From: Clostridiales bacterium
GTDB lineage: Bacteria > Bacillota > Clostridia > Lachnospirales > Lachnospiraceae
DNA: 64,000 bases
Direction: 5' to 3'
NCBI GenBank assembly: GCA_012519695.1
Contig: JAAYPT010000052.1
Coordinates: 1 to 64,000, forward strand
Translations under genes and position numbers: made by a program
Part shown: in pieces, positions 7,021 through 55,333 of the stretch
How the letters are laid out: each line of letters starts with the position of its first letter
How positions within the stretch are numbered: position 1 is the stretch's first letter
The notes under the pieces: generated by a model
The model's database searches: none
Told to the model about the DNA's origin: nothing
What the model saw: only the letters and a program-made list of their open reading frames with translations

Positions 7021-7028
7021 TTAAATAT

Positions 7029-7101
7029 GGGATATTAGCTCAGGTGGTAGAGCACTTGACTTTTAATCAAGTTGTCCGGGGTTCGAATCCCCGATGTCTC
7101 A
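7029..7101 (+). tRNA. tRNA-Lys (anticodon TTT), integration site of the ICE
   Basis: Acceptor GGGATAT/ATGTCTC, anticodon loop CTTTTAA with TTT, T-loop TTCGAAT. Its last bases (7098-7101) are part of the CTCATT hexamer shared with the right end of the ICE, so the gene is intact although the element is inserted at its 3' end. The integrase stop codon lies inside this gene on the other strand. Confidence 0.95.
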
Positions 7102-8566
7102 TTATAAGTAGTTTATCCGAACACCGGAAAACGTTAGGATCAAAATCAACAGAGTGGTTATTGTCAGAGTAGTTGTAGACAATAACCACTTTGTCGTTAT
7201 AAACATAAACGGAGTGAACAAAGACATCTAAGAGATGTTCTTTGAAACTTTCGTCAGACAAATCACCATTTTTAAACAGAGACAGCCAGTAAATTACATG
7301 TTCCTTTGTAAGAGCAGGTTTCTGAATCTCTGCTTGGGCAATATGTATCTTCAAATCTTCAGCCTGAGCTTCCAATTCAATAAGGCGTTCTTTAGTAGAA
7401 GCGGTGATAATTCCAGCTTCTATGGCTTTCATGAGGTTATTTATAGATTTCTGATTTTCTTTTAAAGCAGCATTTAATTCTTTTACTCTTAAATGACTAT
7501 CATCATTGCATTGAATTGTCATTATTCGTTCAGCTAGGTATTCAATCATTTCGTCGGAAAGAACATCGTTGATTGTATGCATTGCAACAAAATCTTCCAG
7601 GTCATTTTTACGATATGTTTTTAGGTTACATTTAGCTGTGCCGGCATTTCTTTTTTTAGTGGCGCACTTGTAGTAAGAGTATCGAGTTCCTTTTTTGCCG
7701 TATCCACATTCTCCAACAAGGAGGGCACCACAGTTTCCACAGAAAGCCTTTAGCGAAAGAAGATATTTTTCTTCAGCTTTATAAGATGCAGAATGCCCAT
7801 TGCGTTTATGAAAGGTTGAACTAACAGAATCCCATAGCTCCTGATTGATAATTGCAGGAATCGGAATAGGAATTCCCTCATAAGAATGTTTTCCAATGTA
7901 TTTCTCATTTCGCAGCATAGTGTAAATACCATTTTTGGTAATCAGTCCCCCTTTTCTGTTTCGTACCCCCATTTCTTTAAGATTTTCCAATATTTTAACA
8001 GCAGTGCAACCAGCATTGTAGTTTTCAAAGACATAGCGAACAACCCAGGCTTCACTCTCATTAATCTGGTATTGTTTGTTTTCTATTTTATAACCGTAAG
8101 GAGCTTTGCCTCCAACCACAAATCCTTTAAGAGCATTTTCACGATGTCCTCGTTTTACTTTTTGGCGAAGGTCTGCAATATAATATTCCGCAAGTCCTTC
8201 CATTAGACTTTCCAAAATAATACCTTCAGGTCCATCAGGAATGGCTTCCTTGGCGTAGAGCAGACGTACTCCATATCGTTTTAGCTTAATTTTATTCAAG
8301 GCAATTTCTTCGCGATCTCTTCCGAATCGGTCAACTTTCCATACAATAATAGCATCAAATTGTTGCTTTTCAGCATCATGGAGCATACGGTTAAAGGCAG
8401 TTCTGTTCTCAAAGTCAGATCCGGATATATGTTTGTCAGCATATATATCAAGTATTGTTATGTTGTGTTCCTTTGCATAGGTTTTACAGTCTCTGACTTG
8501 TCCTTCAATACTTTGATCTGTTTGTCTCGGTCCAGGGGAGTATCTAGCATATATTACAGCGTTCAT
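7067..8566 (-). CDS. int: Large serine recombinase (ICE integrase)
   Basis: 499 residues. The N-terminal resolvase domain has the catalytic Ser at residue 10 (ARYSPG), with SGSDFENR and VDRFGRD motifs. A recombinase domain (about 160-270), a zinc ribbon (CGNCG and a later Cys pair near 297-330) and a coiled coil (about 365-430) follow, the layout of phage and ICE large serine integrases. It cuts and rejoins attP and attB through a Ser-DNA link. Its last 11 codons are read from the opposite strand of tRNA-Lys. In the circular form the sequence past MR would instead continue from the right end of the ICE, giving a different tail. Start ATG 8566 has GAGG upstream. Confidence 0.93.
   Translation of the reverse strand: MNAVIYARYSPGPRQTDQSIEGQVRDCKTYAKEHNITILDIYADKHISGSDFENRTAFNRMLHDAEKQQFDAIIVWKVDRFGRDREEIALNKIKLKRYGVRLLYAKEAIPDGPEGIILESLMEGLAEYYIADLRQKVKRGHRENALKGFVVGGKAPYGYKIENKQYQINESEAWVVRYVFENYNAGCTAVKILENLKEMGVRNRKGGLITKNGIYTMLRNEKYIGKHSYEGIPIPIPAIINQELWDSVSSTFHKRNGHSASYKAEEKYLLSLKAFCGNCGALLVGECGYGKKGTRYSYYKCATKKRNAGTAKCNLKTYRKNDLEDFVAMHTINDVLSDEMIEYLAERIMTIQCNDDSHLRVKELNAALKENQKSINNLMKAIEAGIITASTKERLIELEAQAEDLKIHIAQAEIQKPALTKEHVIYWLSLFKNGDLSDESFKEHLLDVFVHSVYVYNDKVVIVYNYSDNNHSVDFDPNVFRCSDKLLIMRHRGFEPRTT
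7098..7123. other. attL: core hexamer plus inverted arm
   Basis: The core CTCATT (7098-7103) is followed 10 bp later by the arm TATCCGAACA (7114-7123). This arm is the exact reverse complement of TGTTCGGATA at the right end of the ICE. Confidence 0.75.
7153..7190. repeat. 13-bp perfect inverted repeat within int
   Basis: AGTGGTTATTGTC at 7153-7165 pairs perfectly with 7178-7190 across a 12-base spacer. It lies 50 bp inside the left end, in the coding sequence of the integrase tail. It may act as an accessory site or slow read-through from the tRNA operon; no T-run follows. Confidence 0.6.
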
Positions 8567-10080: not shown

Positions 10081-10135
10081 AAAAGGAAAGCTGATAGTAA
10101 AAGTCAGCTTTCCTTTTTTGTAAGTTCAGAACAAA
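10081..10135. repeat. Direct repeat copy 2, containing a terminator
   Basis: Matches 9112-9166 at 54 of 55 positions, 969 bp away. This copy overlaps the 3' end of the Xre repressor gene, providing its last codons (SELTKKES), while copy 1 follows a different gene. Confidence 0.85.
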
Positions 10136-10478
10136 ATTCTATACATCTTTTAAGAGCTGCAATATCTTCCTCTGGAGCATCGACAAGTTTCATTATAAGA
10201 CTCTTAAGAGTATCATTTTCACCTGCCATAATACGGTCTATCTTTTCGTAGAAACTAATATCTGATTTTACAAAAGGCTCCCCCTTACCTGTGGTTAACC
10301 AAATATAATCAACATGGAATTCGCGACAAATTGATTTTCGCATTTGCTCTGTAACATTGCGATTACCATTTTCAATATTAGACATTGATGCTCTAGTAAC
10401 TCCGACCTTTTCGCCGAATTTTTCCAATGTGAAATCAAGTTCCTTGCGAATCTGTTTGATTCGCTCATTTTCTGTCAT
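10104..10478 (-). CDS. Xre-family repressor (124 aa)
   Basis: An N-terminal HTH (residues 5-60, with LEKFGEKVGVTRASMSNIENGNR) is followed by a 60-residue acidic, helical C-terminal part that may dimerise. ATG 10478 has GGAGGTGATTAC upstream; a further upstream start lacks one. It is divergent from the small genes at 10623 onward and lies next to their promoter, which contains repeated TCAARGAA-type half-sites. It is the likely immunity-type repressor of the early ICE operon; this is inferred from layout. Confidence 0.88.
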   Translation of the reverse strand: MTENERIKQIRKELDFTLEKFGEKVGVTRASMSNIENGNRNVTEQMRKSICREFHVDYIWLTTGKGEPFVKSDISFYEKIDRIMAGENDTLKSLIMKLVDAPEEDIAALKRCIEFCSELTKKES

Positions 10479-10534
10479 GTAATCACCTCCGTATAACAAG
10501 GATAACATGTTAATGAAAAATCGTCAACAAAAAA

Positions 10535-12792: not shown

Positions 12793-12803
12793 ATAAAGAT
12801 TTA

Positions 12804-12876
12804 GCAGCGGTAGCTCAGTCGGTAGAGCACCTGTGCGATGCACAAGTTGTCGAAGGTTCGAATCCTTTCCGCTGCT
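12804..12876 (+). tRNA. tRNA-like RNA 1, formally anticodon GAT, with abnormal anticodon arm
   Basis: A perfect 7-bp acceptor (GCAGCGG/CCGCTGC), normal D-arm with GG in the loop, variable region and T-loop TTCGAAT give a complete cloverleaf of standard length. The anticodon arm is odd: position 33 is C instead of the universal T, pair 28-42 is a C/A mismatch, and TGTGC can pair with GCACA, leaving only GAT as a three-base loop. It may not decode. It lies inside the ICE, far from the host tRNA cluster. Confidence 0.6.
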
Positions 12877-12966
12877 TTGGAAAATAGAATATTGATAGTT
12901 GAGAAAATGTCACATTTTGTTATCGACAAGATTTGCGTGAAACAGATATTGGCGGTTGATACAATA

Positions 12967-28361: not shown

Positions 28362-31300
28362 ATGCAAAAAGTAAAAAGATTGATTTCGTCATTGTTGGCT
28401 ACAGTGATGTGTGCAGCAATGATATGTCAGCCGATGACTTCTTTTGCAGGAGGACAGGATACCATTTCGGTTGGTCTGAATGTAGGGGCTAATTGTAGCT
28501 ATGGAAGTTACAGCACGCATTATTACAGAGATACTACAAATGGTAATTCCTTTGCGTACTGTGCACAGCCATCCAAGAATTCTCCGGCAGGAGGAACTTA
28601 TACGGCTAGTGTTTCAAATGTAGCCGGATTGAGGGCAATCCTTTATTATGGCTATGGAGGTCCGGGGTTCGAAGACCCTAATTATGGAGCAAAGAAGATA
28701 TTTGATTTTTCTGACACAGAAATTTCCAAGGAACGAATCCCTTATGCTTATACCCATACGCTTGTAGCACTTGCCTACTGTGGCGGTAACTGGGATGCAA
28801 TGGGGAGTTCTATACAGCAGGGAATGGTAGATTTAAAAAGTGCATTTACAGATGTATATAACTTTTATCGGGACAAGGATTCCGTAGTTCCAAGTGGTTT
28901 TACTGCCTACCTGTTTAGTACAGGTGGAGCTACACAGATAATGGCGACTTGGAGGTATATTCCTACCGGAAAACTGAAATTGAAAAAAGTATCAGCCAAT
29001 CCGAGTCTAACAAATGGAAATAGTTGCTATAGTCTGGAAGATGCAGAGTTCGGTATTTATACGGAACTTGCTTGTACAAATCAAGTGGCAACGTTAAAGA
29101 CAGATGTTGCCGGAGATAGCAATGAGGTGGAAGTAAATGAGGGAACATACTATGTACGAGAAAACAAAGCACCGAAGGGGTTTGCTAAAAGTGATGAGGT
29201 AATACCTGTGAACGTAACTTCAGGGCAAACAACTACAGTGACATTTGAAGATTTGCCACAGAATGACCCTGTAAGAGTGGTTTTGGGAAAAATAGATAAA
29301 GAGACAAATCGAAATAAACCACAAGGTAGTTCTAATCTTGCTGGAGCGGAGTTTACTGTAAAATTTTATGAAGACTATTATGATACGGATCCGGCAATAC
29401 AAGGAAAGACACCAATACGTACATGGGTTTTAAAAACAAATGGAAATGGATTTGCCGGTTTGGACAATGCATTTAAAATTTCAGGAGACGAATTTTGGTA
29501 TTTAAATGGTTATACGGTGCTTCCGTTAGGTACAATAACTATTCAAGAGACAAAAGCTCCAGATGGCTATCTCATTAATAATGAAGTGTTTGTGAGACAA
29601 GTCACAAGCAATAGTGATATCGAAGCAGTCAACACCTACAACCAGCCTATTGTTAAAGAACAGACAATCCGTGGTGGTGTAAAGATTGCCAAGATGGATA
29701 GTCAGAAACAAAAGTCAGAGGCGCAGGGTTCTGCAACACTGGGAAATGCAGAGTTCAGTATTGTGACATTAAATAAAAATACCGTTGTAGTAGATGGCAG
29801 GGAATACAGTCAGGGACAAGTTTGTAAAACTATTGTAACGGACCCAAAAACGAAAATAGCGTCAACCACCGCTAATGAACTACCGTATGGAGATTATAAG
29901 ATTTTTGAATCCAAGTCTCCGGACGGTTACCTAATGGAAGGCACACTGGAGCGTACATTCAGTATTAGAGAGAATGGTGTAATCGTAGATTTAACCGGTA
30001 GTGAAAATGCTATTTTGAATGATGTAATCCGTGGTGGTGTGAAGATTTCCAAGCGTGATTATGAATCAAAGGAAACAGTGCCACTCGGTGATGCATCATT
30101 AGGAAATGCAGAGTTTAGCATTATAACATTAAATGAGAATACGGTTCTTGTTGATGGAAAAGAATACAGTTATGGACAGGTTGCAAAGAAGATTGTTACG
30201 GATGATGAGACGAAAATAGCATCAACCGCGGCAGATACACTTCCACGAGGACATTATAGAATCGTGGAGAGCAAAGTACCGGAAGGTTATCTGATGCAGG
30301 GCATATTAGTGCAGGAATTTGACATCGTAGAAGATGGTGTAATCGTAGATTTAACAGATGCAGACCATTCTATTCAGGACCAGGTAAAACGTGGGGATTT
30401 TGATATTACCAAGATTGACAGTTCTTCACAGAATACCATGGCAGGTGTAAAGTTTAAGATAACTTCTGACACAACCGGAGAATCCCATGAGTTTACTACA
30501 GACGAAAATGGTTATTACTCTTCCTCTTCTGATTGGAATAAGCACAGCAGCAACACCAATGGAGGTGGAGCAGAAGACGGTATGTGGTTTGGTATTTCTT
30601 CTAATGGAAATCAGGTTGCAGTAAATGACAATCTAGGAGCTTTACCATATGATACTTATACGGTTGAAGAACTTCCATGTGCAGCGAATGTAGGAAAACG
30701 TTTGTATGTAGGAAAGATTACCATTCGAAGAGATGGTGTCACAATCCATATGAACAATATTGAAAATGTTGGAGTTACCATTGGAACTACAGCTAAGGAT
30801 GCAAAGACTGGAACACAGTATGCGTGTGCAGAACAGGATGCAACAATCATAGATACTGTTACTATGAGCGGCTTGGAGAATGGCGTAGAATATACCATAG
30901 TAGGAACCTTGATGGATAAAGAGACAGGACTTGCAGTAAAAGATACGGAAGGAAAGGAAATTACTTCCAAGGTTTCTTTTAAACCGACCACGGATATGAT
31001 GTATCGGGATATGGAGTTTGATTTTGATGCTTCAGGGCTTGCCGGGCATGATGTGGTAGTATTTGAAGAACTGTATCAGGGCGAAAAACTGGTAGCAAGT
31101 CATAAAGACTTGAGTGATGAAGGTCAGACCATTCATTTCCCTGGCATTGGAACACAGGCATCGGATAAGGATACCGGAATTGATGTATCTATGGCAGATG
31201 AGGAAGTAACTCTTGTAGATAAGGTGTCTTATACCAACCTACGACTGGGAAAGAAATATACAGTCACAGGAACCTTGATGGATAAGGAAACCGGAGAAGC

Positions 31301-33161
31301 AATAAGAAATAAAGAAGGAAACAAGATTACAGCAAAGGCATCCTTTATACCGGAAGAAGCGGATGGAATAACAGAACTGGAATTTACTTTTGATGGTTCT
31401 TCCCTTGCCGGAAAGAGCATTGTTGTATTTGAAGAATTGTCCCGAAACGATAAGGTTTATGCGGTACATGCAGATATCGAGGACGAAGCTCAGACCGTAC
31501 ATTTTCCGAAAATTGCAACTACGGCAAAAGATAACGATACGCAGGTAAATGCCTCCTGCGCCGGTGATAAAATCACCATTACAGATACGGTGTCTTATGA
31601 GAATCTGATGCCGGGTTACAGCTACACGGTAAAAGGTCTTATTTATGACAAAGAGACAGGGGAGCCATTAGAAATAAATGGAGAACAGGTAACAGCAGAA
31701 GCAATGTTTACCCCGGAAGATACTTCCGGAACGGTAGATGTTGCTTTTTCATTTGCAGGAACAGGGCTTGCCGGAAAGAGCATTGTTGTATTTGAAAGTG
31801 TATATTATGGAAGTGCTGGTGGAGAAGAAATGGTTGCGCAGCATGCAGACTTGAAGGATGAAGGTCAGACCATTCATATCCCGAAAATCGGAACAACTGT
31901 AAGTGATTCTGAAACCGGGGTTAATTTATCCCATGCAGAGAAAGAGATTACCGTAACAGATACGGTGTCCTATGAGAATCTTATTCCGGGCAAAGAATAT
32001 AAGCTAAAGGGAGTACTGATGGATAAGGAAACCGGAGAAGCGGTAAAGGATAAGGAAGGAAATGAGATAACCGCAGAGGCATTCTTTACACCGAAAGAAG
32101 CGACCGGAACAGCGGACGTTGTTTTTAAGTTTGATGGAACAGAGCTTGCCGGAAAAACATTGGTTGCATTTGAAGAGTTATCCCAAAATGATGTGATATA
32201 TGCAGTTCATACGGATATCGAGGATAAAGCACAGACCTTGTATATTCCGAAAATCGGTACGCAGGTGAAGGATTCTGAAACACAGGAGAATGTCTCTTGT
32301 GCAGATGAAGCGGTTACTCTTATTGATACGATATCTTATGAGAGCTTGAATCCAACTTGTATTTATACGATAAAGGGTACTGTTTATGACAAAGCTACCA
32401 AGAAGCCGTTGCTGGTAGATGGAAAAGAAGTAACAACACAAATGGAGTTTTCACCGAAAGAGTCAAGCGGAACAGTAGACGTTACATTCCGTTTTGATGG
32501 AACAGACCTTGGAGGAAAGACCCTGGTTATTTTCGAGACTGTTTCTTATAACAACGGAGAAAAAGAGGTAGTGGTTGCAGAGCATGAGGATATTGAGGAT
32601 AAAGCTCAGACACTTTATGTTCCGGAGATTCATACCAATGCAGTAGATACAGCAACCCATGAACACAGCGGTGTTGTAGGTGAAAAGATGCAGCTTATTG
32701 ATACGATTTCCTACAAGAACTTAATACCGGGAAAAGAATATACCGTAAAGGGAGTTTTGATGGACAAGTCTAATGGAAAGGAATTTCTGGATGCATCAGG
32801 AAATGTTGTGACTGTAGAAACTGCATTTGTTCCGCAAGAGGCGGACGGTAGTACAAATGTAATATTTCAGTTTTCGTGTACGACAGCGGCTACGGTTGTG
32901 GTAATGGAAAATGTATATTATAAGGACAAGCTGGTTGCAGTACATGCTGACTTGGAGGACAAAGACCAGACCGTTACATATTCTGTTCCGGAAAAGGAAC
33001 AGGAGCAGCCAAAAGCAAAGACAGGAGATAAATCACCTGTAGAAGCATTGTTGGTAATAGCAGCCGGAGCAGGGGCAATGCTTGGTATAGCTTTATATCT
33101 AAGAAAGAAAGACAGTAAGGAACAAGGTAAAAAGAAAAATCAGAAAAGAGAAGAGGAATAA
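28362..33161 (+). CDS. Large thioester/SpaA/VaFE-repeat surface adhesin (1599 aa)
   Basis: Signal peptide 1-29. A thioester (TQXA-like) domain with SFAYCAQPS lies near residues 60-70. About five SpaA/Cna-B-type domains follow, starting near residues 202, 306, 437, 560 and 678 (for example GGVKIAKMD). Then come six VaFE repeats starting near 803, 928, 1050, 1175, 1296 and 1422 (IGTTAKD and similar). The end has PKAKTGDKSP, a membrane helix and a basic tail. This resembles a (L)PKTGD sorting signal with A in place of the central P. It probably covers recipient or host contacts. It opens the T4SS operon. Confidence 0.9.
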   Translation: MQKVKRLISSLLATVMCAAMICQPMTSFAGGQDTISVGLNVGANCSYGSYSTHYYRDTTNGNSFAYCAQPSKNSPAGGTYTASVSNVAGLRAILYYGYGGPGFEDPNYGAKKIFDFSDTEISKERIPYAYTHTLVALAYCGGNWDAMGSSIQQGMVDLKSAFTDVYNFYRDKDSVVPSGFTAYLFSTGGATQIMATWRYIPTGKLKLKKVSANPSLTNGNSCYSLEDAEFGIYTELACTNQVATLKTDVAGDSNEVEVNEGTYYVRENKAPKGFAKSDEVIPVNVTSGQTTTVTFEDLPQNDPVRVVLGKIDKETNRNKPQGSSNLAGAEFTVKFYEDYYDTDPAIQGKTPIRTWVLKTNGNGFAGLDNAFKISGDEFWYLNGYTVLPLGTITIQETKAPDGYLINNEVFVRQVTSNSDIEAVNTYNQPIVKEQTIRGGVKIAKMDSQKQKSEAQGSATLGNAEFSIVTLNKNTVVVDGREYSQGQVCKTIVTDPKTKIASTTANELPYGDYKIFESKSPDGYLMEGTLERTFSIRENGVIVDLTGSENAILNDVIRGGVKISKRDYESKETVPLGDASLGNAEFSIITLNENTVLVDGKEYSYGQVAKKIVTDDETKIASTAADTLPRGHYRIVESKVPEGYLMQGILVQEFDIVEDGVIVDLTDADHSIQDQVKRGDFDITKIDSSSQNTMAGVKFKITSDTTGESHEFTTDENGYYSSSSDWNKHSSNTNGGGAEDGMWFGISSNGNQVAVNDNLGALPYDTYTVEELPCAANVGKRLYVGKITIRRDGVTIHMNNIENVGVTIGTTAKDAKTGTQYACAEQDATIIDTVTMSGLENGVEYTIVGTLMDKETGLAVKDTEGKEITSKVSFKPTTDMMYRDMEFDFDASGLAGHDVVVFEELYQGEKLVASHKDLSDEGQTIHFPGIGTQASDKDTGIDVSMADEEVTLVDKVSYTNLRLGKKYTVTGTLMDKETGEAIRNKEGNKITAKASFIPEEADGITELEFTFDGSSLAGKSIVVFEELSRNDKVYAVHADIEDEAQTVHFPKIATTAKDNDTQVNASCAGDKITITDTVSYENLMPGYSYTVKGLIYDKETGEPLEINGEQVTAEAMFTPEDTSGTVDVAFSFAGTGLAGKSIVVFESVYYGSAGGEEMVAQHADLKDEGQTIHIPKIGTTVSDSETGVNLSHAEKEITVTDTVSYENLIPGKEYKLKGVLMDKETGEAVKDKEGNEITAEAFFTPKEATGTADVVFKFDGTELAGKTLVAFEELSQNDVIYAVHTDIEDKAQTLYIPKIGTQVKDSETQENVSCADEAVTLIDTISYESLNPTCIYTIKGTVYDKATKKPLLVDGKEVTTQMEFSPKESSGTVDVTFRFDGTDLGGKTLVIFETVSYNNGEKEVVVAEHEDIEDKAQTLYVPEIHTNAVDTATHEHSGVVGEKMQLIDTISYKNLIPGKEYTVKGVLMDKSNGKEFLDASGNVVTVETAFVPQEADGSTNVIFQFSCTTAATVVVMENVYYKDKLVAVHADLEDKDQTVTYSVPEKEQEQPKAKTGDKSPVEALLVIAAGAGAMLGIALYLRKKDSKEQGKKKNQKREEE

Positions 33162-34656: not shown

Positions 34657-37098
34657 ATGCCGAAATTGAATGTAAATTCTCGATTTTCAGAGAAAAAGGC
34701 AATGACAGTGCCGGTAGTACCGATACCGAAAAAAGTAAAGGATGCTTTAAATATTGATGAGGTACGCAAAAACGGAATATTTAAAATAGAACCGATGGAT
34801 GGATTGGCATTGTATGATCAGTGCTATATTTTTGAAGATATTAATTATAAGAATCAGGATGAGGGTAAAAAGACCAGCACACTTTTAGAAGTGATGAAAT
34901 GGTTTAAGAGTATGAGTACACAGTTTAAGATTACCATAGCTAATGAGCAGCAGGATATGGATCAGTTTATGGAAGAACTGTTTAAACCTTTGCATGGAGA
35001 AGAATATCCGGAACTGGAACAGGGACTGGGGGATTGGATTAATCAAAAGCTGGAAGAAGGAAGCAAAGATATTAGAAGAATTTTGTATCTTACGGTTACT
35101 TGTAGAGCAAAGTCTTTTGAAGAAGCAGCAGTATTCTTTAATACACTGGATACAACATTGCAATTTTTGTTTGCTACTTTAAAGAGTCGTTTATATCGTA
35201 TGTCAGGAGTGGAGCGTTTGATATTGTTGCAGCGAATGTTGCGAGCTGGAGAACAACAGGGAATATTGCCGCAGGAAGCAAGTCTTTTGGATGGAACAGA
35301 TAACTGGAAAAATCAGATTCTTCCTACAGCAGTAGAAGCGGAGATGGACTGTCTTAGAATTAATAAAAGATATGTAAGCATCTTGTTCGCCCATGACTAT
35401 GATCAGACCTTAGATGAAGAAAAGGTAGTACATGGACTGACAGATACTTTATTTCCAACTTATATCACACTGGATATAGAACCGGTGCAACGACGACTTT
35501 TGAAAGATAAGCTCCAGAGTGCCCATACCAATAACGAAATGTCCATATCCAAGGAAAGAGATAAATACTACAGTATGCATCAATATGGAGCAGGAACTTC
35601 TTACCAGTTAAGCAAGAAAAAGGAAGAACTGGAAGCTATGATGGATCAGGTAGATGACAATGACGAAGAGGCAGTATTCTTAGGTATGCTTGTAATGGTA
35701 TCCGCAGATACGTTAGAAGAACTGGAGAAACGTGTAGATACTTTGAAACAGATTGCAAAGGGGAACGGTTATTCCTTAGAACCATATTACCGCAGACAGT
35801 TGAAAGCACTGAATACAGTATTGCCAATTGGTGGGCGGCAGGTAAATCATATGCGTTCCTTATTTACTTCTTCTGCAGTAGCATTTCAACCGTTTTATGC
35901 CAGAGATCTTCAGGATAAAAATGGATTTGTGTATGGGCTTAATCGAACAACCAAGCATTTGTTACGAGGAGATAGAAAAAAATTGAAAGCACCACACGGA
36001 ATGATTGCAGGACATTCAGGTGGTGGAAAATCTTTTTTAATCAAGGAAACAGAAATAGGTCAGACATTGCTATTTACAGATGATGACATTATTATTCTTG
36101 ATCCAAACAATGAGCAGGAAGATTATATTAAGTTATGTAATGGGCAATATTTTGATTTTACACCACAATGTAACATACATTTGAATCCGTTTGAAGTACC
36201 GGATGATATATGGAATGGTACAGAGGTAGAGAGAAATAAATTTATTGCGCAGAAAACGGAGTTTGCCAGTGCCTTTTGTGCTGCAACAATGACAAATATC
36301 TTGGTTACACAGGTGCATATCGTACATATAGGACGTGCTGTTAGAAAAATTTATGAAAGTTATTTTAGAAAAAAGAGAAGAGGAAAGCAGCCTACACTTC
36401 GAGATATTCGAGATAATTTAAAGAAACAGTTAGATGAGGCAGATACACAGGAAGAAAGAAGAATGCTTTTGGATATTGTGGATTCGTTGGAAGAGTATAC
36501 AGATGGAGTTTATGATATGTTTGCATATCCCTCTAATCTGGATATGAATTCCCGATTGGTAGGATTTGGACTTAAAAATATTCCTAAAACCGTGTGGGAG
36601 CCGGTAATGGTTACACTAATGCATTTTCTTTCCATGAGAATTGAACATAACCAAAAGAATCTGGTAGCTGCTCGATTAGTTGTTGATGAAGCACAGGTAC
36701 TTTGTGACAAAGGTTCTTCTGCCGAACAGCTTCTTTATGCGGTAGAAACTTATCGAAAGGTAGGAGCGGTAGTAACATTGGCAGTTCAGAACCTTACTCG
36801 TGCTTTGGAAAATCCGGAGTTAAGAGATATGTTTTCTAACTGTCCTTATAAATGTTTTTTGGATCAGGGCGGCGTGGATGCGGCAAGTTTAGCACAGATT
36901 CAGGAATTTTCAGAAGAAGAACTGCGAGCCCTGGAAGAAGAAATACCGGGGAGAGGTGTGATGGTATGGGGCGGACAGGTTTATCTTTTTGATGCCCGGA
37001 TGAATGAAAAGAATGTGCTTTACAATCAGTTCAATACGAATTTCCATGAAAAGGCAGAACAGAAAAAAATGCAGGAAGAAGTAGAAAGGGAGCAGTGA
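34657..37098 (+). CDS. virB4: VirB4-like T4SS ATPase
   Basis: 813 residues. Walker A GHSGGGKSF near residue 451, Walker B LVVDEAQVLCD near 675, followed by the QNLTRALENPELRDM segment typical of VirB4/TraE proteins. The N-terminal 400 residues form the VirB4 N-domain. It powers assembly of the mating channel. It starts at ATG after AAAGGAGAAAAAGG. The CHAP gene begins 4 bp behind its stop. Confidence 0.93.
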   Translation: MPKLNVNSRFSEKKAMTVPVVPIPKKVKDALNIDEVRKNGIFKIEPMDGLALYDQCYIFEDINYKNQDEGKKTSTLLEVMKWFKSMSTQFKITIANEQQDMDQFMEELFKPLHGEEYPELEQGLGDWINQKLEEGSKDIRRILYLTVTCRAKSFEEAAVFFNTLDTTLQFLFATLKSRLYRMSGVERLILLQRMLRAGEQQGILPQEASLLDGTDNWKNQILPTAVEAEMDCLRINKRYVSILFAHDYDQTLDEEKVVHGLTDTLFPTYITLDIEPVQRRLLKDKLQSAHTNNEMSISKERDKYYSMHQYGAGTSYQLSKKKEELEAMMDQVDDNDEEAVFLGMLVMVSADTLEELEKRVDTLKQIAKGNGYSLEPYYRRQLKALNTVLPIGGRQVNHMRSLFTSSAVAFQPFYARDLQDKNGFVYGLNRTTKHLLRGDRKKLKAPHGMIAGHSGGGKSFLIKETEIGQTLLFTDDDIIILDPNNEQEDYIKLCNGQYFDFTPQCNIHLNPFEVPDDIWNGTEVERNKFIAQKTEFASAFCAATMTNILVTQVHIVHIGRAVRKIYESYFRKKRRGKQPTLRDIRDNLKKQLDEADTQEERRMLLDIVDSLEEYTDGVYDMFAYPSNLDMNSRLVGFGLKNIPKTVWEPVMVTLMHFLSMRIEHNQKNLVAARLVVDEAQVLCDKGSSAEQLLYAVETYRKVGAVVTLAVQNLTRALENPELRDMFSNCPYKCFLDQGGVDAASLAQIQEFSEEELRALEEEIPGRGVMVWGGQVYLFDARMNEKNVLYNQFNTNFHEKAEQKKMQEEVEREQ

Positions 37099-48717: not shown

Positions 48718-49863
48718 ATGAAAGTTGATGTTAATTTGAGAACAGATGAAGAAAAGATTATGAATCCAGAAGAGACAGAAGTAGCATCCGGATGGGTGGA
48801 AATTGAAAACTGTATAAAATTTCCGGTAAAAGTGAGGAAATACATAGACCAAGAGGGGCAACAAAAAATGTTTGTCAGCTATCCTCAAAGGAAAAACGGT
48901 GTAAAGTATGAGGGAGTTGTTTATCCACATGATAAGGAAGTACGAAAGGAAATAGAAGAGAAGGTTTTAGATGCAGTACAGTATGAGGTTGTGAAAGATA
49001 TTAATCTTCCGGCAATAGAGGCAGTCAGGGTAAGTCCAATTCGGCAAACTAAGACAGCAGCAGTTGTATTGCGAGGAGTGGCAACTATAAAGATTGCGGG
49101 AATGACAATTAATGGAATTACGATAAAAGAGGGACAAAAGGGACTATTTGTACAGATGCCACAGTATAGGTCTGGTGGAGAATATCGAGACACTGTTTAT
49201 GGAACCAATGCAGGTATTCACGCATTGATAAAAGACGAGGTTTTAAAGGCTTACAATGAGGTAATAAAAGAAGAAAAATATCAAGAAGAAAAGGTGGAAC
49301 AGGAACAGCAGACAGAAAAAGAGCAAGAACAGCATGAGTATCAGGAACAACAGGTAGAAAAGGAAGAACAAGTCCAGGAGACAGAAAAGGAGCAAAAAGA
49401 ACATATAGAAGCAGTAACAGATGTAGAAAAATTCGTACAGGCTTTTCAGAAAGACAATATGCAAGAAATGTTGGAAGTGCTTTCTCATGCCGAGTTGGAA
49501 ATTGCAAATGCTAAGTTTACAGAAAATTGGAATGCAGTAAGACTTCAGGCAGCTACTATGGGAAATGAAAAATACCAGGTAGATGTTGCTTTTTTTAATT
49601 CATGGAATCCAATTCAACAAACTCCACCACAGGATTATTTAAAACAGAGTATTCAAGCACGCATTTTTGAAAACGGAAATTGTATTGGAATGCCAGTGCT
49701 TATGGAAAGAAAGAGCAAGAGTTTGGAAAATGCAGGGAAAAATTACGATGAGCTTTTAGCAGAATGGAAAAAACTTACCAAACAGGAAAAAATTGAAATT
49801 CCGCAAAGATCGCAAAATCAGGAAGCAAGAACAACCCCCAAAAATGCTGCGCCGGGCTTGTAA
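48718..49863 (+). CDS. Tandem SpoVG-domain protein (381 aa)
   Basis: Two SpoVG-like units: about 1-95 (FVSYPQRKNGVKYEGVVYPH) and 96-185 (VRVSPIRQTKTAAVVLRGVA, then FVQMPQYRSGGEYRDTVY). A Glu/Gln-rich coil (190-240) links them to a third region with VAFFNSWNPIQQTPPQDYL. SpoVG proteins bind nucleic acid; chromosomal ones are about 95 residues, so the duplication is specific to mobile elements. It may regulate transfer genes. Confidence 0.82.
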   Translation: MKVDVNLRTDEEKIMNPEETEVASGWVEIENCIKFPVKVRKYIDQEGQQKMFVSYPQRKNGVKYEGVVYPHDKEVRKEIEEKVLDAVQYEVVKDINLPAIEAVRVSPIRQTKTAAVVLRGVATIKIAGMTINGITIKEGQKGLFVQMPQYRSGGEYRDTVYGTNAGIHALIKDEVLKAYNEVIKEEKYQEEKVEQEQQTEKEQEQHEYQEQQVEKEEQVQETEKEQKEHIEAVTDVEKFVQAFQKDNMQEMLEVLSHAELEIANAKFTENWNAVRLQAATMGNEKYQVDVAFFNSWNPIQQTPPQDYLKQSIQARIFENGNCIGMPVLMERKSKSLENAGKNYDELLAEWKKLTKQEKIEIPQRSQNQEARTTPKNAAPGL

Positions 49864-52071: not shown

Positions 52072-54357
52072 ATGAATCAAAGGATGTATCAAAGAAGAAA
52101 TACACCGTATGGTGTGTTCTTTTTTTTGTTATTAGTGTTTTTGATATTGGCATATTTATTGTCTGGAGTATTTAAAATCAATGGAGCCTCTTTGGAAAAT
52201 TGGGAGGAGTGTTTTATATATGTATGCTGCCATCCGTTTTCAAATTGGAATGATAAAACCGTAGCATGCCTTGGAATCGCATTTATCGCTTGGCTTGTGG
52301 TTATTAATTATATTCTGTATTATTACAGAAATTTTCAGTCAGCAATTGAACACGGTTCAGCGGATTGGTTAGAACCAGAAACAGCATGTCAGGAGCTGGC
52401 AGATAAAGAAGAAAAGTATAATAGAATACTAACACAAAACCTTAAGGTTAGCCTAAGAGGCAGTCTTTCCAATAACAATGCACTTGTAATAGGTAGTTCA
52501 GGAACTTTTAAAACCACATCTCTTATGCATCAGAATATGCTGCAGTTTGGCAGTTGCTATGTGTCACTGGATGTAAAAGGGGATACACAAAAAAAGCTGG
52601 GAAAAGCAATGGAGAAGGGAGGATATCTTGTTAAATCACTTAATCTAAAGGTTCCAGAAAAATCAGACCGTTATAATCCGTTTGTGTATATTGAGAGAGA
52701 GGATGATTTATTGCGTGTTGTTAAAGCGTTGCAAGATGCTTGTAGACCAAATAAGCAGGCTAGTATGGCTGATCCATTCTGGGATGATGGAGTAAGGCTT
52801 TATCTGCAAGCATTGTTTTATTATGCATGGCTTGATGCAAGAGAAAGTGGACATGTGGGAACTATGAATGACGTTGTGTTTTTATGTAATCAGGAAAATA
52901 TTAAAACGATTGATCCAGTTACAGAAGAGGAAGTATCACAGCTACAAAAACTAATGGACGCAAAGGCGCAGCGGTATGGAGTAGATTATCCTCCAGTAAG
53001 AGATTATCGAAAATTAAAAGAGGGGGCACTGGATACGGTACGTTCTATTACTATTATGGTAAATGCGATGCTGGCAATTTGTGAAACCGGAGAGGTTAAG
53101 AGAATCTTTTCAGGAAATGATATAAATATCAGAGAATTAGGTACTGGAGTAGGTGGTGATCCAGAAAAGAAAATCGTACTGTTTTTAGTCATTCCGGATA
53201 ACAATGATGTATACAATTTTATCATTTCCATGTTTTATACTCAAATGTTTGACATTTTAATTCGTCTTTCTGATGATGAGTTAAAAGCACCGCTACCAGT
53301 ACCGGTAGAAGTATGGATGGATGAATTTTATGCAGGTGCCAAGCCGGCAGATCCAGATGTACTTCTTGGAGTTGTTCGAAGTCGTAATATTAGCATGATT
53401 CCAATGCTTCAGTCTGTTTCTCAGATTAAGACATTATTTAAAGATGATAAGTGGGAGACAATCATGGACAATGTAGCAACAGTGATTTATTTAGGTTCAG
53501 GACCATTAGCAGAATCAACGCATAAGTTTATTAGTGAGGCATTAGGAACAGCAACCATAGATTCCAGAAGTGATAACATTCACTTAGGAAGAAATGGAAA
53601 TAGCGGTTTAAATTTTAATAGGGCAAAAAGAGAGCTGATGACACCGGATGAAGTAAAACGAATGCCGAATACAGAAGCTATCATCTTTCTGGAAAGTCAT
53701 AAGCCGATTTATGACACGAAGGCAATTCCATTCGATAAGCCGGAGAGAGGATTTGTTGCATCAAAAGACTTAAAGCAGCGTTATAAGGAGGCACTTTCTC
53801 TGGGAGAGTATGATCATCCAGTTTATACAATATATGATCCGGAGCATTTTACTTATATTACAGTGGAAAGAGAAAAAAAGCTGCAGGTATTAGAAGATGA
53901 AAAGGAAATACAAACATATCAAGAAGCGGCGAAAAGAGATCCAGATATTTACGTCTATAATATAGAAGAAAAAGACCTTCTGTATTTGAGCTGGGGACAT
54001 CCGGAACGAACACAGGAAGAAGTAGAAAGTATGTTTAAAAATGCGATAAATGAAGAAAAGAAGAGAATGGAAGAAATTAAGGGGTTAGTTGTTTTGCAGG
54101 ATGTAGAGGATTCTAATGTACCGAATTTCGGTACGCAGGATTTTGAAACAGATAAGTCCACATGGAACAAGGAAAGCACATTAAAGGAACTTTTGGCAGA
54201 ACATTGGGAAGAACTGTCCCCTCCAGAGCAGGAGGAAATTTGTATTGGAATTGATGAGGGACTTACAGAAGAACAGTTGCAGCAATTACTTTTGGCTTCC
54301 TTAGAAGAAATGAGTATTTTGCGTAGAGCGTATGTGTTGGAAAATAAAAAGGTATAA
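52072..54357 (+). CDS. virD4: VirD4/TraG-type coupling protein
   Basis: 761 residues. Two membrane helices (about 15-33 and 62-85), Walker A VIGSSGTFKTTS near 140, Walker B VEVWMDEFYAG near 414, and QSVSQIKTLF behind it. It links the relaxase-DNA complex to the T4SS. A C-terminal extension of about 170 residues is not part of the core family; it contains a palindrome encoding VPNFGT near residue 684. Confidence 0.93.
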   Translation: MNQRMYQRRNTPYGVFFFLLLVFLILAYLLSGVFKINGASLENWEECFIYVCCHPFSNWNDKTVACLGIAFIAWLVVINYILYYYRNFQSAIEHGSADWLEPETACQELADKEEKYNRILTQNLKVSLRGSLSNNNALVIGSSGTFKTTSLMHQNMLQFGSCYVSLDVKGDTQKKLGKAMEKGGYLVKSLNLKVPEKSDRYNPFVYIEREDDLLRVVKALQDACRPNKQASMADPFWDDGVRLYLQALFYYAWLDARESGHVGTMNDVVFLCNQENIKTIDPVTEEEVSQLQKLMDAKAQRYGVDYPPVRDYRKLKEGALDTVRSITIMVNAMLAICETGEVKRIFSGNDINIRELGTGVGGDPEKKIVLFLVIPDNNDVYNFIISMFYTQMFDILIRLSDDELKAPLPVPVEVWMDEFYAGAKPADPDVLLGVVRSRNISMIPMLQSVSQIKTLFKDDKWETIMDNVATVIYLGSGPLAESTHKFISEALGTATIDSRSDNIHLGRNGNSGLNFNRAKRELMTPDEVKRMPNTEAIIFLESHKPIYDTKAIPFDKPERGFVASKDLKQRYKEALSLGEYDHPVYTIYDPEHFTYITVEREKKLQVLEDEKEIQTYQEAAKRDPDIYVYNIEEKDLLYLSWGHPERTQEEVESMFKNAINEEKKRMEEIKGLVVLQDVEDSNVPNFGTQDFETDKSTWNKESTLKELLAEHWEELSPPEQEEICIGIDEGLTEEQLQQLLLASLEEMSILRRAYVLENKKV
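54118..54134. repeat. Palindrome site 16 (symmetric variant, in frame)
   Basis: GTACCGAATTTCGGTAC: only the central base differs, so symmetry is kept. It encodes VPNFGT in the extension of VirD4. Confidence 0.85.
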
Positions 54358-55217: not shown

Positions 55218-55272
55218 TTGGCTTAAAGATTGACAACTAATGCGAATGTACTTCTTTCCTTAAAGAAAATAA

Positions 55273-55301
55273 TGTTCGGATACAGCACCGAATCCCTCAT
55301 T
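55273..55301. other. attR: inverted arm plus core hexamer
   Basis: The arm TGTTCGGATA (55273-55282) is followed 13 bp later by CTCATT (55296-55301). Joined to the left end it gives arm, 13 bp, CTCATT, 10 bp, complementary arm. The dyad centre falls inside the hexamer. Confidence 0.75.
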
Positions 55302-55306
55302 TAAGA

Positions 55307-55333
55307 AGATAAGCATTTGCTTATCTTTTTTTT
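55307..55333 (+). terminator. Strong terminator, probably that of the tRNA operon before insertion
   Basis: AGATAAGCA (55307-55315) and TGCTTATCT (55318-55326) form a 9-bp stem and eight T follow. It begins 6 bp behind the attR core. Removing the ICE would place it about 6 bp behind tRNA-Lys. Confidence 0.85.

Follow-up and report, generated by a model that had tools for sequence, protein, structure and literature searches.

The attachment site, attP, of an element inserted in the genome of a Clostridiales bacterium lies inside the 3′ end of the element's own integrase gene, int, such that the gene of the circular element would read through attP into a hydrophobic C-terminal module before stopping. 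Integration would sever int at the core, leaving the inserted element with an integrase of canonical length whose last few residues are coded by the host, and displacing the codons of the module by approximately 48 kb to attR. Comparison of related loci demonstrates this anatomy, its recurrence in relatives, and selection on the module at the level of the protein. The explanation that best accounts for the whole, to which we assign about an even chance, is that attP lies in the coding end of int, that the module removed by integration acts in the free element, and that the tail-less canonical enzyme left behind carries out excision. The DNA analysed, hereafter the window, is the 64,000-nucleotide stretch at positions 1-64,000 of the forward strand of contig JAAYPT010000052.1 (assembly GCA_012519695.1); its main features are given in Table 1, and related loci are numbered with the prefix L.

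Table 1. Positions of the integrase gene, the attachment sites and selected element genes in the window
Feature	Position	Strand	Basis
int, integrated form	7067..8566	-	ORF and translation; Pfam Resolvase, Recombinase, Zn_ribbon_recom
tRNA-Lys (ttt), insertion target, left intact	7028..7102	+	ARAGORN
Core CTCATT at attL	7098..7103	.	Sequence
Core CTCATT at attR	55296..55301	.	Sequence; empty site in G026
attP arm retained at attL, TATCCGAACA (left arm as read along int)	7114..7123	.	Dyad only in joined form
attP arm retained at attR, TGTTCGGATA	55273..55282	.	Dyad only in joined form
Circle-form tail codons (DSVLYPNIIFFKERSTFALVVNL and TAA), parted from int by integration	55223..55294	-	Joined frame; conserved in L048, L049
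Repressor-like regulator near int	10104..10508	-	PHROG 8 and 4
TraG/VirB4-type ATPase, conjugation	34657..37098	+	Pfam P-loop_TraG
Type IV coupling protein, conjugation	52072..54357	+	Pfam T4SS-DNA_transf

The integrase gene and its attachment site

The product of int is a large serine recombinase, judging by its Resolvase, Recombinase and zinc-ribbon domains, which occur in that order and all score above the curated Pfam cut-offs. All three are still present in the integrated form, which consists of 499 codons encoding 499 amino acids, stops at a TGA (7069-7067), and takes its final codons from the antisense of tRNA-Lys (7028-7102, plus strand), giving the C terminus ...LLIMRHRGFEPRTT, or ...MRHRGFEPRTT. 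The original prediction that the residues after LLIMR are HRGFEPRTT, read from the back of this tRNA, is exact according to both the ORF and ARAGORN. When the ends of the element are joined at CTCATT, the frame resumes at 55294 and descends to a TAA at 55225-55223, lengthening Int to 513 amino acids ending ...LLIMRDSVLYPNIIFFKERSTFALVVNL, with the final residues being MRDSVLYPNIIFFKERSTFALVVNL rather than MRHRGFEPRTT. The tail anticipated for this form, of about 23 residues beginning DSVLYPNIIFF and closed by TAA, is equally precise, with 23 residues counted from the D.

That the ends of the element join somewhere within the CTCATT core is supported by three comparisons of sequence. Firstly, joining them generates a perfect 10+10 bp dyad (TGTTCGGATA...TATCCGAACA), which spans 49 bp, is centred on the core and lies wholly inside the 3′ end of int. 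This dyad is absent unless the ends are joined, its halves sitting at opposite ends of the inserted element, and it corresponds to the short attP of about 50 bp, with two arms flanking a small core, that is expected of a serine integrase. Together with the joined frame, it bears out the proposal that int crosses the attachment core. Secondly, an empty site is visible in genome G026, of the same genus, where the same six-tRNA array and tRNA-Lys are followed by CTCATT and then AGTAAGAAGAT, which is the sequence to the right of the window's attR save for two extra bases; a homologue of the right flank lies approximately 0.87 kb beyond this empty site. The right flank was matched in two of the 28 other genomes of the genus, with the site visible in one of those two. 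Thirdly, in the loci L048 and L049, the Ints of which are 64-65% identical to that of the window, the opposite contig ends carry an attR whose right arm is perfect, together with a tail aligning in frame with the window's. L048 overlaps an annotated tRNA-Lys and L049 terminates at the contig edge on GGFEPPTT; their rebuilt circle tails are RDRVLYPNLIVLSEYNIFVLIINSAA and RDGVLYPNLSILNEYNIFVLIVNSPAA respectively, compared with RDSVLYPNIIFFKERSTFALVVNL in the window.

Several further features accompany the attachment site. A perfect 13-bp inverted repeat (AGTGGTTATTGTC ... GACAATAACCACT, with a 12-base loop) occupies 7153-7190, in the coding region of int just upstream of attP. At 55302-55330, an AT-rich hairpin followed by a T run (AAGATAAGCATTTGCTTATCTTTTTTTT, identified by eye, and missing from a terminator scan that demands three G-C pairs) is the probable terminator of the tRNA array, shifted to attR by integration; consequently, the tRNA array, to which tRNA-Lys (7028-7102) belongs, may read on antisense into int. 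The T-arm of the tRNA or tmRNA, in its TTCGAA context, resembles an attP arm and occupies the place of the missing arm (7080-7095 in the window, and likewise in L041, L049, L076 and L090). This likeness may explain the preference for the ends of tRNA and tmRNA genes, and it causes some integrated copies to resemble an intact attP.

From its coupling protein and VirB4-type ATPase, the element carrying int is ICE-like. No relaxase was found among the 18 element ORFs, a subset excluding int, that were submitted to Pfam. Its further genes encode a CHAP hydrolase, ParA and ParB-like proteins, SSB and ArdA. The element also encodes a surface protein of 1599 aa (28362-33161), which combines a thioester domain with SpaA folds and six TQ ester-bond domains, and, close to the conjugation genes, a protein of 381 aa (48718-49863) that matches the SpoVG family. 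A tRNA-Ile (gat) gene lies within it at 12803-12877. The relatives of the integrase come largely from phages, being named phage records and IMG/VR contigs, with capsid and tail genes present in the feature tables of Fontainebleau and FP_Epona; a search of eight relatives' records for the coupling protein, run without a positive control, returned no match.

Recurrence among relatives and selection on the tail

Related integrases were drawn from viral loci, of which the best 80 out of 475 were taken, and from 12 out of 145 and 25 out of 392 genomes, with that of the window among them; one scan of genome contigs gave 2 loci, and the first viral scan, using a single protein query, gave no match. 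A dyad was counted if it spanned 45-53 bp at the 3′ end of int, with arms matched at 8/9 or better and a TTCG-like left arm, this last rule being picked after seeing the data and applied identically to the controls. Among these relatives, such a dyad occurs in 48 of 107 non-redundant loci (perfect, at 9/9, in 27), a class that retains at least two integrated copies with a tRNA- or tmRNA-derived arm mimic (L049 and L076) and the ambiguous loci L006 and L132, and in which redundancy was removed within classes only, so that one element may count once integrated and once rebuilt. Controls placed 300, 600 and 900 bases upstream contained it in 0, 1 and 3 of the 107, with no 9/9 match at any of these distances (0, 0 and 0). 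The remaining 59 loci are integrated copies, fragments, diverged sites or examples of a different layout.

What follows the dyad is also consistent between loci. Arm positions were stored for 45 of the dyad loci, and here the frame stays open past the right arm and stops a median of 18.7 codons after it, within 14-24 codons in 40, with L049 a 3-codon outlier. In one clade the arms fall in a different reading frame (VRVR...RTRT), yet the tail that comes next is again hydrophobic (FVVDGYIVLPIAI). Hydropathy, taken as the largest 6-residue mean within the last 26 residues, had medians of 2.62 in the 48 dyad loci, 1.23 in the eight overlapping a tRNA or tmRNA, and 1.72 in 47 others (Mann-Whitney p = 0.006 and 1.6e-5 for the dyad loci against the overlapping and other loci respectively), with the tmRNA-coded tails of L003 and L061 being hydrophobic too (2.80). 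This comparison left out L001, L004 and L005, which are the window again and were restored as one integrated entry, as well as L014-L016, and set apart six loci with an ORF running off the contig.

The dyad is carried by four of the six named phage records (Fontainebleau after joining its ends, Shimadzu, Dulem virus 37 and Pioen), and was not found at the 8/9 threshold in the other two, Lelie and FP_Epona; the records of Streptococcus phages Javan308 and Javan11 begin at the end of int, and are uninformative on layout. In the deposited record of Fontainebleau (L040, ON453893.1), int is a misc_feature at 1-1446 without a stop, cut at the core, and in that of Shimadzu (L042, LR596903.1) it is flagged as incomplete or pseudo. 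Public annotation can therefore hide the true C terminus of such integrases.

Integrated copies illustrate the alternative ending. Host-coded tails are present where the end of int overlaps a tmRNA (L003 and L129, L041, L061, L138 and the distant L015) or a tRNA (tRNA-Lys in L048, tRNA-Leu in L090 and tRNA-Glu in L139). The int region of L129, from a genome of the window's family, is the same as that of L003 in length, tail and tmRNA position, while L061, in a tmRNA, and L063, which is free, have ...KQKRELPWCSDGSR in common and then diverge into LLDQTGVEPVSKSLFPVLLLS and VLEESVLHPNTPLVLGDFIILLVPRAA respectively. Were integration to strand the tail, it would be expected at attR, and this prediction was examined at the contig ends of 15 pairs, with the right arm sought across the whole 2.5 kb. 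In five of the 14 prophage-type pairs (L048, L049, L056, L059 and L067), the missing tail lies at attR behind a perfect right arm; the integrated Int of L067 ends ...ESNPRPKAHPLQYLPSQPLI with TRTPKIIVLRDYVVLRIAV at attR, and that of L059 ends ...VDLTGVEPVSENKFPFLLLS with NTLPFHQPIVFGPYIVLRIAA at attR. The fifteenth pair, L064, is a contig with a 36-base end repeat that reads through directly. No convincing attR was found in nine of the 15 pairs, the contigs of which need not reach attR. The proposal that Int exists in two versions, one encoded by the circular and one by the integrated element, is supported, and holds for many relatives besides the window. The host-coded tail looks passive, being read off the back of a tRNA or tmRNA; conservation is seen in the tail of the circle form.

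The nature of this conservation was assessed from uncorrected Nei-Gojobori counts. In clade B (14 sequences), the tail has a pS of 0.73 and a pN of 0.25, giving a pN/pS of 0.35, compared with 1.01 and 1.48 in the other two frames; the body has a pN/pS of 0.26 and a pS of 0.81, and attP a pS of 0.13 (ratio 1.57). The tail pN/pS is 0.40 in a second clade of six sequences (other frames 1.26 and 1.82; body 0.33), 0.63 in a third clade, also of six (other frames 1.14 and 1.14; body 0.47), and 0.44, or 0.43 without gaps, in the trio of the window, L048 and L049 (other frames 0.98 and 1.00; body 0.24). With pS near saturation and the tails short, these ratios are rough, and the contrast between frames outweighs the figures themselves. 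They support the circle-form tail being under purifying selection as a protein in several lineages, which agrees with the original prediction that the difference between the two versions of Int matters; the effects originally proposed for it, a bias towards integration or a change in stability, are putative. Since the tail codons are part of int only in the circle, it is in the circle that this selection acts. About 16 attP codons are fixed as DNA, with pS lowered relative to the body in the second clade (0.32 and 0.53), third clade (0.44 and 0.73) and window trio (0.37 and 0.77), as in clade B. A DNA-level constraint on the tail, such as another protein's site or a terminator, is disfavoured, as the pS of the tail is close to that of the body, unlike that of attP.

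These patterns bear on whether the frame merely stays open past attP by chance, with a meaningless tail. The window alone would be compatible with such an accident, and ORFs that enter tRNA genes commonly acquire antisense tails of the GFEP type; yet purifying selection is evident in the coding frame and absent in the other two, tail lengths are narrowly spread, and a hydrophobic tail follows attP even in the clade reading the arms in another frame. Chance was rejected on the dyad controls, the frame controls and the tail lengths, and we regard it as very improbable.

The main rival, which we consider possible but doubtful, is that the circle-form tail is a degradation tag, making free Int short-lived until the tag is lost on integration, as happens to the repressor in integration-dependent immunity. 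The C termini are hydrophobic, and among the 48 dyad loci at least 11 finish with an A followed by A, V, I or L. The last residues of the rebuilt tails are -SAA in L048, -PAA in L049 and -RIAA in L059, the L059 ending adding weight to this rival, and they recall the LALAA, LAIAA and FAFAA endings of the tmRNA tags found in related genomes. Mycobacterial free-form repressors and several integrases bear -AA tags (PMC8092301). Across the group, however, the end residues vary: the window has VNL, Shimadzu has TRK, and clade B has EEV and the like. The conserved feature is instead a two-strand hydrophobic pattern that is predicted to fold.

Predicted structure and the direction of recombination

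AlphaFold models were examined for two relatives of the window's Int from two lineages, L097 (36 sequences) and L063 (26 sequences). In both, the coiled-coil helices are followed by a hairpin (448-455/461-468 in L097; 442-447/451-457 in L063), and the chain terminates with a second, short hairpin (496-499/502-509 in L097; 489-491/494-500 in L063). The stretch between the two hairpins is poorly predicted and corresponds largely to the attP codons, which start at 479 in L097. Confidence in the terminal hairpin is moderate, with a pLDDT across the block of 56-72 and a pTM of 0.41 in both models, and we describe the circle-form tail as a predicted short beta-hairpin on that footing. The L097 model resembles solved serine integrases (Z = 18.4 to 9dxh_A and 15.8 to 9iu2_A), which, among those listed that include the whole C-terminal part, align with it as far as residue 468-473, just short of the attP codons; the part beyond 472 is barely tested by this comparison, and the solved chains carry 10-16 further unaligned end residues.

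In a less specific reading, the module helps Int to fold or act in the free state, its loss on insertion is tolerated without regulatory meaning, and attP is where it is for compactness. Selection would then be explained without a switch, attP and int would travel as one module, and host-coded tails are indeed tolerated at tRNA and tmRNA sites. We nevertheless judge it unlikely, as solved serine integrases do without a comparable module, within an alignment that barely tests the region beyond 472, and as it leaves unexplained why many lineages keep attP in the coding end of the gene.

A module removed by integration would instead do its work in the free element, at the stage that calls for integration. 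Integration being the task of the free element, it is there that the module should matter. As the module is missing from inserted copies, and as free phages of this group occur, excision presumably works without it, unless another Int is supplied; we assume that excision is done by the tail-less enzyme, a second Int acting in trans being possible. The module would lie on the last beta-strands of the zinc domain and at the base of its coiled coil, the region to which directionality factors bind. In phiC31, the directionality factor gp3 binds to hydrophobic residues of the last beta-sheet and of the coiled-coil base (PMC5814800), and fusing a directionality factor to the C terminus of an integrase alters direction (PMC5737554). 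A tethered hydrophobic hairpin would consequently be well placed to act on direction. The most likely mechanism, which we nonetheless place somewhat short of an even chance, is that the module on the zinc domain favours attP x attB recombination and resists the directionality factor, its loss permitting the factor to turn the enzyme to excision. In its fullest form, this would be a self-editing latch on direction, in which the hairpin, tethered by the attP-encoded residues, covers the factor-binding patch and so allows integration only, until the integration event deletes the hairpin from the gene and the resident element makes only the form capable of factor-driven excision. The latch would operate widely among the phages and conjugative elements found in Clostridia and related bacteria; so complete an account is rather improbable.

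How serine integrases keep to one direction is a central question for both temperate phages and genome-engineering tools. These elements supply natural matched pairs, in which one enzyme exists with and without a selected end module, each form tied to one state of the DNA, making the question of direction directly testable. If the latch is real, the enzyme would take its direction from the state of the DNA. Integrases of this group that are mined from prophages or other inserted elements come without the C terminus of the integrating form, and the missing part can be read at attR.

Relationship to known switching systems

Switching through an attP inside a gene is already known, and it is the case of a serine integrase that appears to be new: no report of one with attP in its own coding end was found in the portions of the open-licence PMC literature consulted. 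The solved enzymes of A118/LI (4kis), SPbeta (9dxd-9dxh), Bxb1 (9iu2) and phiC31 (9rah) share the domain order and, from the model of L097, the fold of the body, whereas their alignments end before the attP-encoded stretch and end module of L097.

The integration-dependent immunity of mycobacteriophages and their relatives (PMC8092301 and PMC9934374) places attP in a repressor gene, uses a tyrosine-family integrase, and removes an ssrA-like tag. In both systems attP lies within a gene, the free and integrated C termini differ, and integration takes off a C-terminal segment. Here, by contrast, the gene concerned encodes the serine integrase, and what integration takes off is a longer, hydrophobic module with a putative role; the attP of the window is in int rather than in a repressor gene, with the repressor-like gene lying separately at 10104-10508. 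The ssrA-like -AA end is absent from the window's circle form (VNL), but present in L048, L049 and L059.

In haloarchaeal pleolipoviruses, attP lies inside a small CDS beside the integrase (PMC7911831). There, as here, a protein can be obtained only from the circular genome, attP being in its gene, although the attP-bearing gene of these viruses is a separate one next to the integrase, rather than the integrase itself. The suicidal, SSV-type integrases of archaea belong to the tyrosine family, and integration splits their gene into inactive parts; a 2021 review regards self-disrupting recombinases as exclusive to archaea (PMC8371274). They are similar to the present system in that attP is inside the integrase gene, and integration alters that gene. 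The difference is that the enzyme here is a serine recombinase, which integration retains whole in its canonical form, with only the end module being swapped.
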